Positions 52,021 to 58,976 of a stretch of 64,000 nt of DNA are shown here, piece by piece (position 1 is the first letter of the stretch; every line of letters begins with the position of its first letter). The DNA lies in NCBI RefSeq assembly GCF_022846655.1, contig NZ_AP025667.1:4501001-4565000 (forward strand), written 5' to 3'. Both the position numbers and the translations under genes were made by a program. This DNA is from Streptomyces seoulensis. Lineage in GTDB: Bacteria; Actinomycetota; Actinomycetes; Streptomycetales; Streptomycetaceae. The notes under the pieces are model-generated. The model searched no databases. It had not been told where the DNA came from and was given only the letters and a program-made list of their open reading frames with translations.

Positions 52021-52737
52021 GTGAGCCATGTTTCAGCCGCCCCCGGCGACAGCCCCTTCCAGACCGAGCCCACCCCGCGTGACGAGGCCCCGCAGTTCGT
52101 GCTGCCCCTCGTCGTACGGATCGAGAAGAGCGCGCCGCCCGCCCGTACCGACGCGCTGGAGACCGCCGCACGCGCCGTGCTCGTCCTGCTCGGGGACGAG
52201 CGGGCGCGCGGCGACGGTGAGTGGGCCGAGGCGGTACGGGACTGGGAGGACGCCCGCATCCGCAAGGTGGTGCGGCGGGCGCGGGGCTCGGAGTGGCGCC
52301 GTGCGGAGGAGCTGCCCGGCATCACGGTGACGGGTGCCGCCGCCGAGGTGCGGGTCTTCCCGCCGATCCCGCTGGACGGCTGGCCCAAGGAGCTGGCCAA
52401 GCTCCAGGTCTCCGGCACCGAACTGGACGACCCCGAGCCGCCTGCCGACCCCGCCCTGACCGCTCCCGTGCTGTGGCTGAACCCGGAGTTGGAGATGTCG
52501 GCCGGCAAGGAGATGGCCCAGGTCGGCCACGGCGCCCAGCTCGCCTGGTGGGCCCTGTCCGACGCGGCCCGCGAAGCCTGGCGCACCACCGGCTACGCCC
52601 TGACGGTGCGCACCGCCACCCCCGCCCACTGGCGCGAACTCACCACCAGCGGGCTGCCGTTGGTCCGCGACGCGGGGTTCACGGAGATCGCGCCGGGCTC
52701 CGCGACGGTGGTCGCCGACCACCCGGCGCTGCGCTGA
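52021..52737 (+). CDS. Peptidyl-tRNA hydrolase 2 (PTH2)-like protein
   Basis: This 238-aa protein starts at GTG 52021. The C-terminal half carries the PTH2 core: VLWLNPELEMSAGKEMAQVG, HGAQLAWWAL and the closing FTEIAPGSATVVADHP. The Lys of SAGK and the following Gln/His positions match the PTH2 active site. The N-terminal half (about 20-120) is an extra alpha/beta region of unknown role with FVLPLVVRIEKSAPP. Whether it hydrolyses peptidyl-tRNA is uncertain because Streptomyces also has a standard Pth. It lies 96 nt before the DUF692 gene. Confidence 0.8.
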   Translation: MSHVSAAPGDSPFQTEPTPRDEAPQFVLPLVVRIEKSAPPARTDALETAARAVLVLLGDERARGDGEWAEAVRDWEDARIRKVVRRARGSEWRRAEELPGITVTGAAAEVRVFPPIPLDGWPKELAKLQVSGTELDDPEPPADPALTAPVLWLNPELEMSAGKEMAQVGHGAQLAWWALSDAAREAWRTTGYALTVRTATPAHWRELTTSGLPLVRDAGFTEIAPGSATVVADHPALR

Positions 52738-52833: not shown

Positions 52834-54120
52834 ATGCGACTGGGGACGGGGATCGGGTGGCGGCCGGAGATCGCGGAGGCCGTGGCGGGCATGCCGGGGA
52901 TCGACTGGGTGGAGGTCGTCGCGGAGAACGTCTGCCCCGGCCATCTCCCGGAGCCCTTGCTGCGGCTGCGTGAGCGCGGGGTGACGGTGATCCCGCACGG
53001 CGTCTCCCTCGGCCTCGGCGGCGCGGACCGGCCGGACGAGGCCCGGCTGCGGGCGCTGGCCGAGCGGGCCGAGGCGCTGGGGGCGCCGCTGGTCACCGAG
53101 CACATCGCGTTCGTCCGCGCGGGCGGACCGCTCACCGCGTCACCGCCGCTGGAGGCCGGCCATCTGCTGCCCGTGCCCCGCACGCGGGACGCGCTCGACG
53201 TGCTGTGCGAGAACGTGCGGATCGCGCAGGAGGCGCTGCCGGTGCCGCTGGCGCTGGAGAACATCGCCGCGCTGTTCTCCTGGCCCGGCGAGGAGATGAG
53301 CGAGGGCGAGTTCCTGGCCGAGCTGGTCGAGCGGACCGGGGTACGGCTGCTCATCGACGTGGCCAACCTGCACACCAACCACGTCAACCGGGGCGAGGAC
53401 CCCGCCGAGGCGCTGAACCGGCTGCCGCTGGAGTCGCTGGCCTACGTGCACGTCGCGGGCGGCTTCGAGCGGGACGGGGTCTGGCACGACAGCCACGCGC
53501 ACCCCGTACCGCCACCGGTGCTGGACATCCTGGCCGACCTGGCGTCCCGCGTCGCACCGCCCGGCGTACTGCTGGAGCGGGACGAGAACTTCCCCGGACC
53601 GGCCGAGCTGGAGCGGGAGTTGGCGGCCATCGGGGAGGCGGTGAAGAAGGGCGGCGGGGCGGGGCGGGCCACAGCCGGCACGGCCGCCCCCACCCCGCCG
53701 GACGCCTCCGCCGGGGCCCGGCAGCGGGTGGCCGTCGCGCAGACCGCCGTACTGTCGGCGCTGGTGGCGCGGACACCCCTGCCCGAGGGGTTCGACCGGG
53801 GGCGGATGGGGGTGCAGGCGCGGGCGCTCGCGGCGAAGCGGGCGGACGTGGTGGCCAAGGTGGCACCGGAACTGCCGCTGATCCTCGGCGCCGGGTACCG
53901 GGAGGCGTTCCTCGGCTACGCGCGCACCCGGCCGATGCGCGGCGGATACCGGCAGGACGCGCTGGAGTTCGTCACCCAGTTGCTCAAGACGGGCCACCCC
54001 GTGGACGCGCGGGCGCGCAGGGCGCTGCGGGAATGGTGGCTCGATCGCGCGGGCCCGGCACCCCGGACGCCCGGCCCGGCCGCCCAGCTGGCCAGGCGGG
54101 TACTGCCGGGAAGGCGCTGA
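52834..54120 (+). CDS. DUF692 (MNIO, MbnB/TglH-like) enzyme with fused C-terminal domain
   Basis: The protein has 428 residues; AAGGAGGGGGA just upstream fixes ATG 52834. Residues 1-270 are a DUF692 TIM barrel with the expected iron ligands: His55 ([10 protein letters not shown]), His90 (TEHIAF), Glu142 (LENI), Asp175 and His180 (IDVANLHTN), His206 (VHVAGG), His221/His223 (DSHAHPV) and Glu248 (LERDENFPG). MNIO enzymes use two or three irons and O2 to modify cysteine or aspartate in peptides. After a Gly/Ala/Pro linker (272-292), residues 295-428 form a helical domain ([34 protein letters not shown]) that resembles the DUF2063/TglI-like partner usually encoded separately; this similarity is my inference. 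No precursor peptide gene is seen nearby. Confidence 0.88.
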
Positions 54121-54229
54121 CCGCGCTCCCCGGCCCGAGGTGAAAACGGAACGCAACGTACCGGCAACGCTCTGTCCGGATACTGAACAAGCCATGGTTT
54201 TTCAGGGGCCGTTGACATAGAAACACCTC

Positions 54230-55024
54230 ATGTTCTGGGTCATCCTCCTGCTTCCGGCCTGGGCTTTCGCCGCCATCGCCTGCACCCGGCTGTGCCTGGC
54301 CGCCGTCCGCGCGGCCGCCGCGGACGGCTCGGCGCGGGCGAGCGGCCAGGTCCGTGATCTGACGCTGTACGAGACGGCGTTCCTGTCCGGCGGCCCCTCC
54401 CGCGTCGCCGACCTGGCCATGGTCCGGATGGCCCGGCAGCGCAGGCTGCTGCTCGCCCACACCGGCTGGGCCACCGTGGTCGACCCGCGCGGGCGGGACG
54501 AGATGGAGCGGTCCGTCCTCGGCGCGATCGGCCCGCAGGGGCAGTCCCGGATCGCCCCCGTACGGGCGGCCGCGGCCGGTGCGGAGGCCGTGCAGCGGCT
54601 CGCCGACCGGCTGGTGGGCGCCGGACTCGCGGTCCCCTTCGACACCGGCACGACCGTGGCCGCCGGGGTGCGCCAGGTGCGCGCAGCCGCCGTGGCCGTG
54701 CTCGCGCTGGGCGTGACGGCGCTGCTCATGCCGGTCCCGGTGGATCTGCCGCGCTTCCAGATCGCCATGTGGTTCGCGCTGCCGCTCGTCGTCACCCTGA
54801 GCTGTCTGGCCATCGCCCGCGTCGAGGTGCACCCCTACCCGCGCTGGGCCTCCCCCGCCGGGCAGCGGCTCCTCGGCGAGCTGGCCCGGCGCCCGGCCGG
54901 GGACGGCGACGAGGGCTCCTTCCTCACCCGGCTCGCCATGCGCGGCGTGCGCGCCCTGAACGAACCCGAGCTGCGGGCCGCGTTCACCCACCGCGATGCG
55001 CCGGGGGCGCACAGGGAGCACTGA
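54230..55024 (+). CDS. TIGR04222-like membrane protein
   Basis: This 264-aa protein has an N-terminal helix (MFWVILLLPAWAFAAIACTR), a cytoplasmic or surface region with DLTLYETAFLSGGPSRVADLA and MVRMARQRRLLL (hallmark of TIGR04222 proteins), a pair of helices (about 155-195) and a polar tail. Many relatives, as I recall, end in long Gly/Cys repeats; this one ends in AAFTHRDAPGAHREH with no cysteine after Cys185. It follows the DUF692 gene by 109 nt. No ribosome site is visible; TAGAAA six bases before the ATG suggests a leaderless transcript. Function unknown. Confidence 0.75.
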   Translation: MFWVILLLPAWAFAAIACTRLCLAAVRAAAADGSARASGQVRDLTLYETAFLSGGPSRVADLAMVRMARQRRLLLAHTGWATVVDPRGRDEMERSVLGAIGPQGQSRIAPVRAAAAGAEAVQRLADRLVGAGLAVPFDTGTTVAAGVRQVRAAAVAVLALGVTALLMPVPVDLPRFQIAMWFALPLVVTLSCLAIARVEVHPYPRWASPAGQRLLGELARRPAGDGDEGSFLTRLAMRGVRALNEPELRAAFTHRDAPGAHREH

Positions 55025-55141: not shown

Positions 55142-56791
55142 ATGAGAGCTGCCGCCCTGTACTCGGCCGCAGGTTCCTTGCTGCTGACCGGGCTCGCCGT
55201 GACCCCGGCGGGCGGCACCCCGGGCACCCCCGGCAGCCCCGGCACCTCCGGCGCACCGGGCGCGGCCGAGCTGCGCGGCACCGCCGTCGCCGCCGCCCGG
55301 GCGCACGAGGCCGGCCTCGACTTCGGGGCCTGCCCCGGCGAGACCCCGGCCGGGATGCGCTGCGCCACCGTACGCGTCCCGCTCGACTACGCCCGCCCCT
55401 CCGGCAAGCACATCGAGCTGACCGTCAGCCGGATGCCGGCGACCCAGCGCGACCCGGCCAACAGCAAGCGGAAGGTGCCCCGGCAGGGCGCCCTCGTCTA
55501 CAACCCCGGCGGTCCCGGCGCCTCCAGCCTGAACTTCCCGGTGATCGGCGTGGTCCCCGAGTGGAAGCGGATCGCGTCCGCCTACGACCTCGTCGGGTAC
55601 GCCCCGCGCGGAGTGGCGCCCTCGGGCCCGCTGTCCTGCGAGAAGCCGGAGGAGTTCTTCAAGGCGCCCTCACTCGCCCCGGTCCACCCGACGGAGGCGT
55701 ACAAGCGGGAGCGGATCGCGCGGGCGAAGGCGTACGCGCGCGGCTGCGCCGAACGGTCGGGCGGCGGGCTGGAGTTCTACAACTCCCTCAACAACGCCCG
55801 CGACCTGGACGTCCTGCGGGCCGCGCTCGGCGAGTCCCGGCTGACCTTCATGGGCGCCTCGTACGGCACCTACGTCGGCGCCCTGTACGCCACCCTCTTC
55901 CCCGGCCATGTGCGGCGGATGGTGCTGGACTCGGCGGTGGACCCGGACCCGGCGAAGGTCTGGTACCGCGCCAACCTGGACCAGTCGGCGGCCTTCGAGT
56001 ACCGCTGGGCGGACTTCCGCGACTGGGTCGCCCGCCACGACGACACGTACGGCCTCGGCACCACGGCGGCCGCCGTCCAGCGCTCCTACGACACCGCGAG
56101 CGACAGGCTGGAGGACCGGCCCGCGGACGGCAGGGTGGGTCCGGGCCAGCTCCAGAACACGTTCCTGATGGCCGGGTACTACGACGACTACTGGCCGAGC
56201 CGGGCCGCCGCCCTCGCCGCCTATCTGAAGGGCGACGCCAAGCCTTTGGTCCGGCTGGCCGCGCCCAGCCCGGAGACGGCCGCCGAGGCGGAGAACGGCA
56301 GCGCGGTGTACGCGGCCGTCGAGTGCAACGACGCCCCCTGGCCGACCGACTTCCGGGTGTGGGACCGCGACAACACCCGCCTCGCCCGCACCGCGCCCTT
56401 CGAGACCTGGGACAACGCCTGGATGAACCTGCCGTGTGCCTACTGGTCCGCGCCCAGGCAGCGTCCGCTGGACGTGCGCACCGGTCCCGGTGAGACCCCG
56501 CCGGTGCTGATCCTCGCCGCCGAGCGGGACGCCGCCACCCCGTACGACGGGGCGCTGGAGCTGAACCGGCGGCTGGCCGGCTCCACGCTGGTCACGGAGC
56601 GGGACGCCGGCACGCACGGCATCGGCGGCGGCCCCAACGCCTGCGTCAACGCCCACCTGGACGCCTACCTGCTCGAAGGCCGCCTGCCGGGCCGCCGCGC
56701 CGCGTGCGCCCCGCGCCCGGAGCCGCGCCCCACCGAGCCGGCCGGACGCGGCACCCCGGAGCGGGACGCACTCAAGGGCAAGGGCGCCTAG
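55142..56791 (+). CDS. Secreted tripeptidyl-aminopeptidase-type alpha/beta hydrolase
   Basis: The protein has 549 residues. A signal peptide is followed by a short collagen-like Gly-Thr-Pro/Gly-Ser-Pro stretch (25-41). The hydrolase domain carries [16 protein letters not shown] (oxyanion), [10 protein letters not shown] with Ser240, [13 protein letters not shown] with the Asp and DAGTHGIGG with the His. The C-terminal TAP-like domain has the paired cysteines typical of SlpD/SlpE/Tap enzymes. These exopeptidases remove tripeptides from secreted proteins. The stop is shared in a CTAG with the convergent hemQ gene. Confidence 0.92.
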
Positions 56792-57519
56792 GCGAGCCCG
56801 GCGACCAGTTCGGCCACCGACTTGCGGCGGCCGGTGTAGAACGGCACCTCTTCGCGGACGTGCATGCGGGCCTCGGAGGCGCGCAGGTGACGCATGAGGT
56901 CGACGATGCGGTACAGCTCGTCGGCCTCGAAGGCGAGCAGCCACTCGTAGTCGCCCAGCGAGAAGGAGGCGACCGTGTTGGCACGCACGTCCGGGTAGCC
57001 GCGGGCCATCTTGCCGTGGTCGGCGAGCATGCGGCGGCGGTCCTCGTCGGGCAGCAGGTACCAGTCGTAGGAGCGCACGAAGGGGTAGACGCTCACGTAG
57101 TTGCGGGGCGTCTCGTCGGCGAGGAACGCCGGGATGTGCGAGCGGTTGAACTCGGCCGGGCGGTGCAGCGCCATGTTCGACCACACCGGCTCCAGCGCGC
57201 GCCCGAGCCGGGTGCGGCGGAAGAGGTTGTACGCCTCCTGGAGCTGGTCGGCGGTCTCGGCGTGCCACCAGATCATGACGTCGGCGTCGGCGCGCAGGCC
57301 GGAGACGTCGTAGGTGCCGCGGACCGTGACGTCCTTCGCGGCGAGCTGGTCGAACAGCTCCTGGACCTCGTCGGCGTAGCCCGCGCGGTCCTCCGGCAGC
57401 ACGTCCTTCAGCTTGAAGACGGACCACAGGGTGTAGCGGATGACCTCGTTGAGGTCCTTGGCCAGCTTGCCCTTGTTCGGGATGCGGCCGGGCTCGGTGG
57501 TGGGGGCGTCGTCACTCAT
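56788..57519 (-). CDS. hemQ: Coproheme decarboxylase HemQ (ChdC), actinobacterial type
   Basis: This 243-aa protein belongs to the chlorite-dismutase-like family but is the heme synthesis enzyme HemQ. It has [35 protein letters not shown], the conserved [17 protein letters not shown] block, [11 protein letters not shown] and [20 protein letters not shown]. It decarboxylates coproheme to heme b with peroxide, the last step of the coproporphyrin-dependent pathway. Its ATG is 5 nt after the hemY stop, so they form an operon. Confidence 0.95.
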
Positions 57520-57524
57520 GCCCC

Positions 57525-58976
57525 CTATTCTCCCGCTCCGCCGTGCAGGCTCTGCACCGGGTTGGCCGTCAGCTCGCGCACACCGGCGAGGTCGCCGCCG
57601 AGCTGGTCGACGGCCGCGTGGGCGCTGGCGATGCAGGCCGGGATGCCCACGCCGTCGTACTGGGCGCCGCACACGGCGAGTCCGGGGAGCTTGGCGATGT
57701 GCTCGCGGACGCGGGCCACGCGCGCGTGGTGGCCGACCGGGTACTGGGGCAGGCCGTCGGTCCAGCGGGTGACGCGGGTGGCGACGGGCTGGGCGTCCAG
57801 GCCGGTCGCGGCGCGCAGATCGTGCCGGGCGACCTGGACGAGGTCGGCGTCGTCGCGCTGGAGGATCTCGGTCTCGTGGTGGCGGCCGACCGAGGTGCGC
57901 ACCACCAGGAGGTCCGGGTCCTCGCCGCCGATCCAGCCCCACTTCTGCGAGGCGAAGGTCGCTGCCTTGATGGTGCGGCCGTCCACCGGCGGCACCAGGA
58001 AGCCGCTGCCCTCGGGCAGGGCGGCGTCGGCGCGGCGGAAGGCGAGGGTGATCAGGGCCATGGAGGCGTACTCCACGGCGGCCAGCTCGGCGGCGGCCGC
58101 CGGGGCCTCGGCGCGCAGCAGACCGGCCGCGGCGGGCGCGGGTACGGCGACCACGACGGCGTCGGCGTGCAGCACGCGGTCCCCGGCCGTGACGCGCCAC
58201 CCGGTGCCGTCCCGGCGCAGCTCGCCGACCGGCGTGCCGGTGAGGATCTCGCCGCCGCGCGCCCGTACCGACTCGGCCACGGCGAGCGGGAGCGTGCCGA
58301 CGCCCCCCTCGATGCCGAGGAAGACCGGGCCGGTCTGCCCGGCCTCGGCGGCCTTGGCCTGGAGGGCCCGGACGGCGGCGGTGAGTGTGTCGTGGGTGCG
58401 GGCGGCCTGGTAGAGCTGGGGGACGGCCGAGCGCAGCGAGAGGCGGTAGGCGTCGCCCGCGTACACCCCGCCGAGCAGGGGTTCCACCAGCCGGTCGACG
58501 ACCTCGCGGCCCATGCGGGCGGCGACGTACTCGCCCACCGCCACGTCGTCGCCTACCTCGGTGGGCGGCAGTTCGGCGTCCCGCTCGATGCGGGCCAGGC
58601 CCTCGGCGGTGAGCAGCCCGGACAGGGCCTCGGCGGTGCCGGGTACGCCCATGACATGGCCCTTGGGCATGGGGCGCAGGGCGTCGCGGGTCCAGATCGA
58701 GGCGGTCGCGGTGGCCGGGGGCTGGAGGCGGTCGCCGAGGCCCACCTCGCGGGCCAGGCCCACCGCCTCGGGGCGGCGGGCGAGCATGGACTCGGCGCCG
58801 AGGTCGACCCGGACGCCCGCGATCTCGCCGGGCAGCAGCTTGCCGCCGACCCGGTCGGTGGCCTCCAGCACCGTCACCCGCGCGCCGCGTGCCAGCGCCC
58901 GGTGGGCGGCGGCCAGTCCGGCGACACCGGCTCCGATGACGACGACATGGCCCGTGCCCGTACCCGTTGCGCTCAT
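57525..58976 (-). CDS. hemY: Coproporphyrinogen III oxidase, FAD-dependent (CgoX; HemY/HemG-type)
   Basis: The protein has 483 residues. It starts with the FAD Rossmann motif [14 protein letters not shown] followed by [12 protein letters not shown] and DLGAESML; the C-terminal FAD/active-site block is ASQKWGW and the closing [20 protein letters not shown]. Because HemQ is encoded next to it, the substrate is probably coproporphyrinogen III rather than protoporphyrinogen. GGAGG lies directly before the ATG. It is divergent from the DUF4349 gene. Confidence 0.95.

Follow-up and report, generated by a model that had tools for sequence, protein, structure and literature searches.

TIGR04222 proteins are described as occurring mostly in Actinomycetota, often beside genes for MNIO (DUF692) enzymes and in some cases with Cys-rich tails, and those with Ser/Gly/Cys tails have been put forward as MNIO substrates (Antoine et al., 2025, PMC12452194). 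The available text of that paper also defines PME-type 2 partners, describes many TIGR04222-MNIO loci as apparently having no partner gene, and lists, among MNIO-TIGR04222 loci that include adjamnio-II, MNIO, TIGR04222, the order peptidyl-tRNA hydrolase, MNIO, TIGR04222 for 13 sequences. The same gene order is found in the window studied here, that is, the whole 64-kb stretch of DNA that was analyzed (G000:C1:4501001-4565000, G000 being the window's genome of 6.54 Mb in a single contig). The MNIO-TIGR04222 pair is thus not new, because it is already in print, although the hydrolase differs, being printed with PF01195 and one Cys in PMC12452194 and having PF01981 and no Cys in the window. The fusion of MNIO and partner, the split of the neighboring membrane proteins into two paralogues (TIG-A and TIG-B), and the unlinked tail peptides come from the study of the window and are not reported in the available text of PMC12452194; in the present reading the natural partner fusion, the TIG-A/TIG-B split and the unlinked candidate substrates are what is new here.

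Two further groups of described enzymes bear on the architecture of the window protein. The engineered HvfB-HvfC fusion is reported, in the available text of PMC13419390, to be more active than the co-expressed pair, HvfC being required for the mixed-valent iron state. As in the window, the MNIO comes first and the partner second in a single chain, but the engineered protein is man-made and carries full HvfC, whereas the window fusion is natural. ChrH/DybH and MovX resemble the window protein in having an extra C-terminal domain on the MNIO, and in Cyanobacteriota the domain of the ChrH type occurs as a polypeptide of its own (PMC12636315 and PMC13419390, available text). The MovX domain is described there as an RRE or winged-helix domain and the ChrH domain as having unknown function, whereas the window domain is DUF2063-like, sharing a domain of ∼90 residues with the PME-type 1 and 2 partners HvfC, TglI and NGO1945.

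All features of the locus lie on the forward strand. A PTH2-domain gene (52021..52737, 238 aa, no Cys; PF01981 at 36 bits, cut-off 23), which has a PTH2-like counterpart among the called genes of 47 of the 61 Streptomyces regions, precedes the fused MNIO-partner protein, which is a single ORF of 428 aa (52834..54120) containing the MNIO catalytic domain at residues 5–269 (52846..53640) and the DUF2063-like partner domain at about residues 297–386 (53722..53991). After a gap of 109 nt, within which a promoter-like block is located (54184..54229), follows the TIGR04222 ORF of 264 aa (54230..55024), and then the gene for a TAP-like secreted alpha/beta hydrolase (55142..56791; PF08386, 2.4e-25). 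ORFs and profile scores thus reproduce the layout of the initial annotation, which had placed a TIGR04222-like protein 109 nt beyond the MNIO and a secreted tripeptidyl-peptidase-type enzyme after it. The hydrolase gene is found 3′ of TIG or MNIO in the majority of Streptomyces maps and is regarded here as a neighbor gene whose part in the MNIO system is putative. At 56788–58976 are two genes, one chlorite dismutase-like (PF06778) and one amine oxidoreductase-like (PF01593), which we take to be the haem genes hemQ and hemY; they too are found downstream of the locus in most Streptomyces maps. A six-frame scan of the 64-kb window detected no stretch rich in Gly, Ser and Cys that had three or more Cys in 30 residues, and family searches detected no second MNIO and no second TIGR04222 protein in the window's genome. 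Named relatives place this genome in Streptomyces; among the 80 listed the closest is S. griseoluteus (L147), with 91% protein identity and identical gene order.

Assignment of the catalytic domain to the MNIO (DUF692) family, already made from the sequence in the initial annotation, is confirmed by PF05114 (259.9 bits against a cut-off of 25, 3e-77), and the full set of nine ligand residues claimed there (H55, H90, E142, D175, H180, H206, H221, H223 and E248) is present. None of these residues varies among the 61 Streptomyces MNIOs compared, a set made up of the window and 60 loci from the matches listed, mostly in low-contig assemblies. Among 20 other actinomycetes, 14 have Y or W in place of H180 and 11 differ at H223, indicating that these two are not universal ligands. 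MNIOs are iron enzymes of a kind that alters cysteines of small proteins, and an MNIO gene of some kind is present in 187 of 199 Streptomyces genomes. The best-scoring named model for the window MNIO is the bufferin maturase BufB (NF050167), at 176.9 bits well under the cut-off of 310, so that the enzyme does not qualify as a BufB equivalog; none of its immediate neighbors is a bufferin precursor gene, a DUF2063 gene or a DoxX gene. In some Streptomyces (L003–L007) there is an additional MNIO, of the bufferin type, together with a DUF2063 partner, and upstream lies a Cys-rich protein of 173–199 aa with the motifs HVCMGLNxC and NGSCASPIN.

The MNIO and its C-terminal domain form one ORF in 57 of the 61 Streptomyces loci and two genes in four (L035, L038, L057 and L061); an additional Streptomyces locus, L031, has the unfused order and a TIGR04222 protein with a Cys tail. 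In 14 of 20 non-Streptomyces actinomycete loci, a separate gene of 108–202 aa directly after the MNIO matches the C-terminal part of the window protein, such that the DUF2063-like partner that follows the MNIO in those organisms is fused to it in the window, with no room for an RRE. A TIGR04222 gene lies just 5′ of the MNIO in 18 of these 20 loci, and one of them, L110, encodes a long MNIO of 491 aa. The stand-alone partners (n = 18) are 28–62% identical to the window domain and have eleven invariant residues. In one draw of 296 actinomycete genomes the MNIO is present in 66, and the partner domain is found in 60 of those 66, with nine candidates scored per genome in a second draw in which some of the other six may not have recurred. 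No genome of the first draw was found with the partner domain but without the MNIO, a count confined to that draw and apart from 28 newly drawn genomes that have the domain.

Comparison of residues 290–428 with MNIO partners, which the initial annotation had proposed, was carried out with sequence profiles. Aligned with hhalign to 15 DUF2063 domains, the domain profile matches over 90 columns with a score of 34.2 (P 5.8e-5, probability 66%), whereas the highest score is 19.4 among 200 column-shuffled profiles and 15.7 among nine unrelated families. Use of a larger set, 110 partner sequences, gives a score of 31.9 (P 1.8e-4, probability 49%). The DUF2063 set derives from four sources, comprising the bufferin-type Streptomyces loci L003–L007 and proteobacterial plasmids, and uses annotated starts, with five members confirmed by Pfam. 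A Pfam search detects DUF2063 in one of 19 domain members (E 0.034, below Pfam's own threshold), searches of PDB and NCBIfam with the partner domain return nothing significant, and a search of the window's genome found no DUF2063 gene. The RRE domain that follows DUF2063 in PME-type 1 partners is missing from the window protein; the ∼40 residues that remain after the DUF2063-like part (387–428) are basic and too few for an RRE, and the domain is therefore at most of PME-type 2 without RRE. In the available text of the papers searched, no report of a natural MNIO-DUF2063 fusion was found.

A different reading of the C-terminal domain is that it is a structural or regulatory add-on to an enzyme that is partner-free like MovX and DybH. 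The hhalign probability of the DUF2063 match is only 66%, and the available text of PMC12636315 describes DybH as active without a partner and ChrH-family MNIOs as carrying another C-terminal domain. Nevertheless, the stand-alone homologues occupy partner gene positions, and the profile match spans the entire DUF2063 domain with clean controls, making an add-on very unlikely. The assignment of the C-terminal extension as a partner domain of the MNIO, first suggested in the initial annotation, is supported by the stand-alone homologues that follow MNIO genes, by co-occurrence and by the DUF2063 profile match, and a partner function is predicted for it on these comparisons.

The window's TIGR04222 protein scores as a member of its family (TIGR04222.1, 138.8 bits against a cut-off of 43), and the DUF692-TIGR04222 pair co-occurs across genomes, a point that the initial annotation had singled out for checking. 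The Streptomyces set that was compared comprises 42 TIG-A proteins, which have a Ser/Gly/Cys tail, and 112 TIG-B proteins of about 260 aa in which the tail is absent. A quick tree built from 61 rows separates TIG-A from TIG-B (SH-aLRT 99 and 100, respectively) and places in TIG-B the window protein, which lacks the C-terminal Cys-rich tail of the putative TIGR04222 substrates. TIG-A begins −4 to +7 nt from the MNIO or split partner in 42 of 42 loci. TIG-B is the next gene in 32 of 141 Streptomyces loci, at distances of 5–404 nt. The promoter-like block upstream of the window TIG-B consists of TGAACA (54184–54189), CATGG (54193–54197) and CATAGAA (54216–54222), followed by 7 nt and the ATG at 54230; the motif is conserved in 92 of 108 TIG-B upstream regions, and in 87 of these the distance between ATAGAA and ATG is 13 nt. 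The block is probably a promoter giving a leaderless mRNA, judging from this conservation. In G000 the motif matched three sites, one of which is TIG-B, and no regulon was seen.

The initial annotation had offered the adjoining membrane protein as a possible substrate, and a TIG-B that is modified at its three conserved Cys or at other residues would form an enzyme-substrate unit with the MNIO. Consistent with such a unit are the 32 loci in which TIG-B adjoins the MNIO, the conservation of Cys 18, 22 and 192 (kept in 105, 106 and 105 of 112 TIG-B proteins, respectively) and the ability of MNIOs to act on non-Cys residues, as described in the available text of PMC12636315. The conserved Cys, however, are not in a tail but in hydrophobic stretches, two in the first and one in the last; TIG-B genes also adjoin TIG-A; and the MNIO persists without any TIGR04222 gene, for example in L175 and L218. 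As a paralogue that has no tail and is preceded by a promoter-like block of its own, TIG-B is an unlikely substrate; for the window the earlier suggestion is left unsupported, the neighbor is probably not acted on by the MNIO, and we rate the enzyme-substrate unit as quite unlikely.

TIG-A is present at 36 of the 61 Streptomyces loci and absent at 25, including the window and most of its clade. Twenty of the 25 loci without TIG-A group with the TIG-A-bearing L067 (SH-aLRT 92, quick tree) and the others are found elsewhere in the tree, indicating several losses of TIG-A. The order MNIO, TIG-A, DUF4142, TIG-B, TAP is kept in L067, L185 and L198, and in L056 only a tail-like remnant lies between MNIO and TIG-B. 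Each of the 25 loci lacking TIG-A retains the full set of nine ligands. For close, hand-picked pairs, dN/dS of the MNIO core is 0.089–0.176 without TIG-A (8 pairs) and 0.088–0.207 with TIG-A (9 pairs). The C-terminal part has higher values than the core, 0.065–0.632 without and 0.11–1.115 with TIG-A, calculated over fixed positions that partly include the linker in longer proteins. In L175 and L218 the MNIO is followed directly by the chlorite dismutase-like gene, and the region contains no TIGR04222 gene. The absence of TIG-A from the window and the remnant in L056 might be taken as signs that the MNIO is a relic that has outlived its substrate, but the intact ligands, a core dN/dS as low as where TIG-A is present, and the 91% identity and same gene order of the S. 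griseoluteus orthologue make a relic hardly credible. Since the MNIO core remains under selection where TIG-A is absent, and the gene persists even at loci with no TIGR04222 gene, a substrate elsewhere is expected.

Two other conserved neighbors were considered as substrates and rejected. A zinc-ribbon-like protein of ∼60 aa that ends in ACSG is encoded near the PTH2 gene in L048, L071, L076, L084 and other Streptomyces loci; it was dropped because it resembles a CxxC metal-binding protein and is present in both groups of loci. A DUF4142 gene (PF13628, 77 bits in the one copy tested) comes immediately after the MNIO in 51 of 141 Streptomyces loci, for example L048, L051, L059, L076 and L084, with further copies upstream of the MNIO; it was dropped because 85 of 95 copies are without Cys and the gene lies 76–949 nt from the MNIO.

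Two unlinked genes in the window's genome encode peptides with a tail of the same kind, lending support to the other substrate proposed in the initial annotation, an unlinked peptide. The first (G000:C1:3318566-3318892, plus strand) encodes 108 aa from the likeliest start, with one membrane span, a WWVV motif and the tail PSCGSGHSCGSSSCGSSCGGGGCGSS. The second (G000:C1:6461887-6462222, minus strand) encodes 111 aa with GSSWWVWGG and HHGGHHGGHSSCGGGHSSCGGGSSCGGGGGCGGGS, and lies between aminotransferase and DUF2617 genes. Their distances to the MNIO gene are 1.24 and 1.91 Mb, respectively. Tail peptides were seen in four genomes only (G000, G108, G166 and G100). G108 has four in tandem (L338:7732-9434), every copy having a membrane span and an SWW motif, a local expansion of the peptide family; G166 and G100 have one each by in-frame reading of pattern matches. 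In the last three genomes they share a locus with the order clpB, YbjN gene, aminotransferase (other strand), peptide or peptides, DUF2617, followed by a spermidine synthase-like gene, two more genes, a phosphoribosyltransferase (presumably pyrE) and an aldolase, by Pfam names. From these three genomes a peptide was predicted beforehand at the clpB-DUF2617 locus of G000, and one was found there; the locus thus holds a peptide in four of four genomes read, three found via the tail and one as an advance test. A W[WC] motif is present in 40 of 42 Streptomyces TIG-A tails, in two of 16 tails of other genera and in eight of eight peptides, and its occurrence in both TIG-A tails and peptides ties the peptides to TIG-A. 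For three peptides, no NCBIfam model reached its cut-off. In another genus, L111 has an 88-aa tail peptide directly 3′ of the MNIO, without WW.

Composition of the tail selects two ORFs in 991,004 bases of G000 and six in the reversed sequence, and is therefore not above chance there, whereas in 160 MNIO regions (2,392,438 bases) it selects 63 ORFs against 12 in reverse. When an N-terminal membrane span is added the numbers are two against zero in G000 and 58 against zero in all 4,041,091 bases fetched, the 58 counting some ORFs twice where loci overlap. The case for the peptides rests on the membrane span, the common motif and synteny. Used as a protein query, the tail matched one of six TIG-A-bearing control genomes, and a TGCGGC pattern missed the known TIG-A tails of the controls G166, G100 and G127, so that negatives from either search are uninformative. 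A wider tail pattern covers 35 of 58 known tails and gave 117 matches in G000 against 125 for a control pattern; in-frame reading singled out the peptide at 3.3185 Mb among the matches listed. Matches in L113, L127, L331, L332, L335–L337 and L340 were rejected, as was L116/L339, where no tail was found. Separately, L112 (G425) has a 67-aa peptide ending in SSCGGCNGCMGCSM three called genes upstream of the MNIO, possibly another precursor, and a Cys-rich in-frame stretch, CGxGCxCGCQSGxPCQCG, was seen in three Streptomyces (G040:C1:4949101, G127:C11:150696 and G100:C1:3619613).

The peptides might instead do other work, for example at a polyamine or envelope locus, with the substrate of the MNIO being an unrelated, unseen peptide or protein. 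The conserved peptide does adjoin DUF2617 and the spermidine synthase-like gene, and the available text of PMC11237479 takes up envelope stress in its discussion of operons that contain spermidine synthase-like, DUF350, DUF4247 and DUF2617 genes. However, the tail and W motif are common to the peptides and TIG-A, and in L111 a tail peptide of like build directly follows the MNIO; an unseen substrate is accordingly considered unlikely. The explanation that we favor, with moderate confidence, is a self-partnered MNIO that is likely to act on single-span peptides encoded at unlinked loci, which carry a WW(A/V) motif and a tail of the SCGGGSSCGGGG type, rather than on the adjoining membrane protein.

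In the favored explanation, an iron oxidase is fused at its C-terminus to a DUF2063-like partner that is a separate subunit elsewhere, and the partner domain probably has the role that HvfC plays for HvfB, maintaining an active multinuclear iron site. Substrates would dock through the W-W or W-C motif, and the Cys of Gly/Ser/Cys tails on membrane-anchored proteins would most likely then be oxidized in turn; a Cys-derived heterocycle is the best guess for the product, because the closest named MNIO model is a bufferin maturase. In most Streptomyces, the translationally coupled TIG-A would be one substrate, and in the window's clade, from which TIG-A is mostly gone, the small unlinked single-span WW(A/V) peptides would be the likely ones. 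The presence of both His and Cys in the tail suggests metal binding near the membrane. Under the positive-inside rule, the Arg-rich stretch that follows the span would be cytoplasmic and so would the peptide tail; for TIG-A, the available text of PMC12452194 predicts tails that lie outside. A broader proposal, on which our judgment is evenly balanced, is that nearly all Streptomyces have a core, self-partnered, RRE-free MNIO that acts in trans on a dispersed family of membrane peptides, each having a single span, the WW(A/V) motif and the SCGGGSSCGGGG tail and one being encoded at the conserved clpB-DUF2617-spermidine synthase locus, and that TIG-A is an optional linked substrate lost in some lineages.

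The natural fusion offers an answer to the apparent absence of partner genes beside many TIGR04222-MNIO pairs in PMC12452194, as far as its available text describes them, and an RRE-free enzyme provides a means to ask which half of the partner is responsible for tuning the iron cluster. Mining of gene neighborhoods would miss candidate substrates such as the unlinked peptides. Since 187 of the 199 Streptomyces genomes have an MNIO of some kind, the modification system may be close to core in this much-studied genus.
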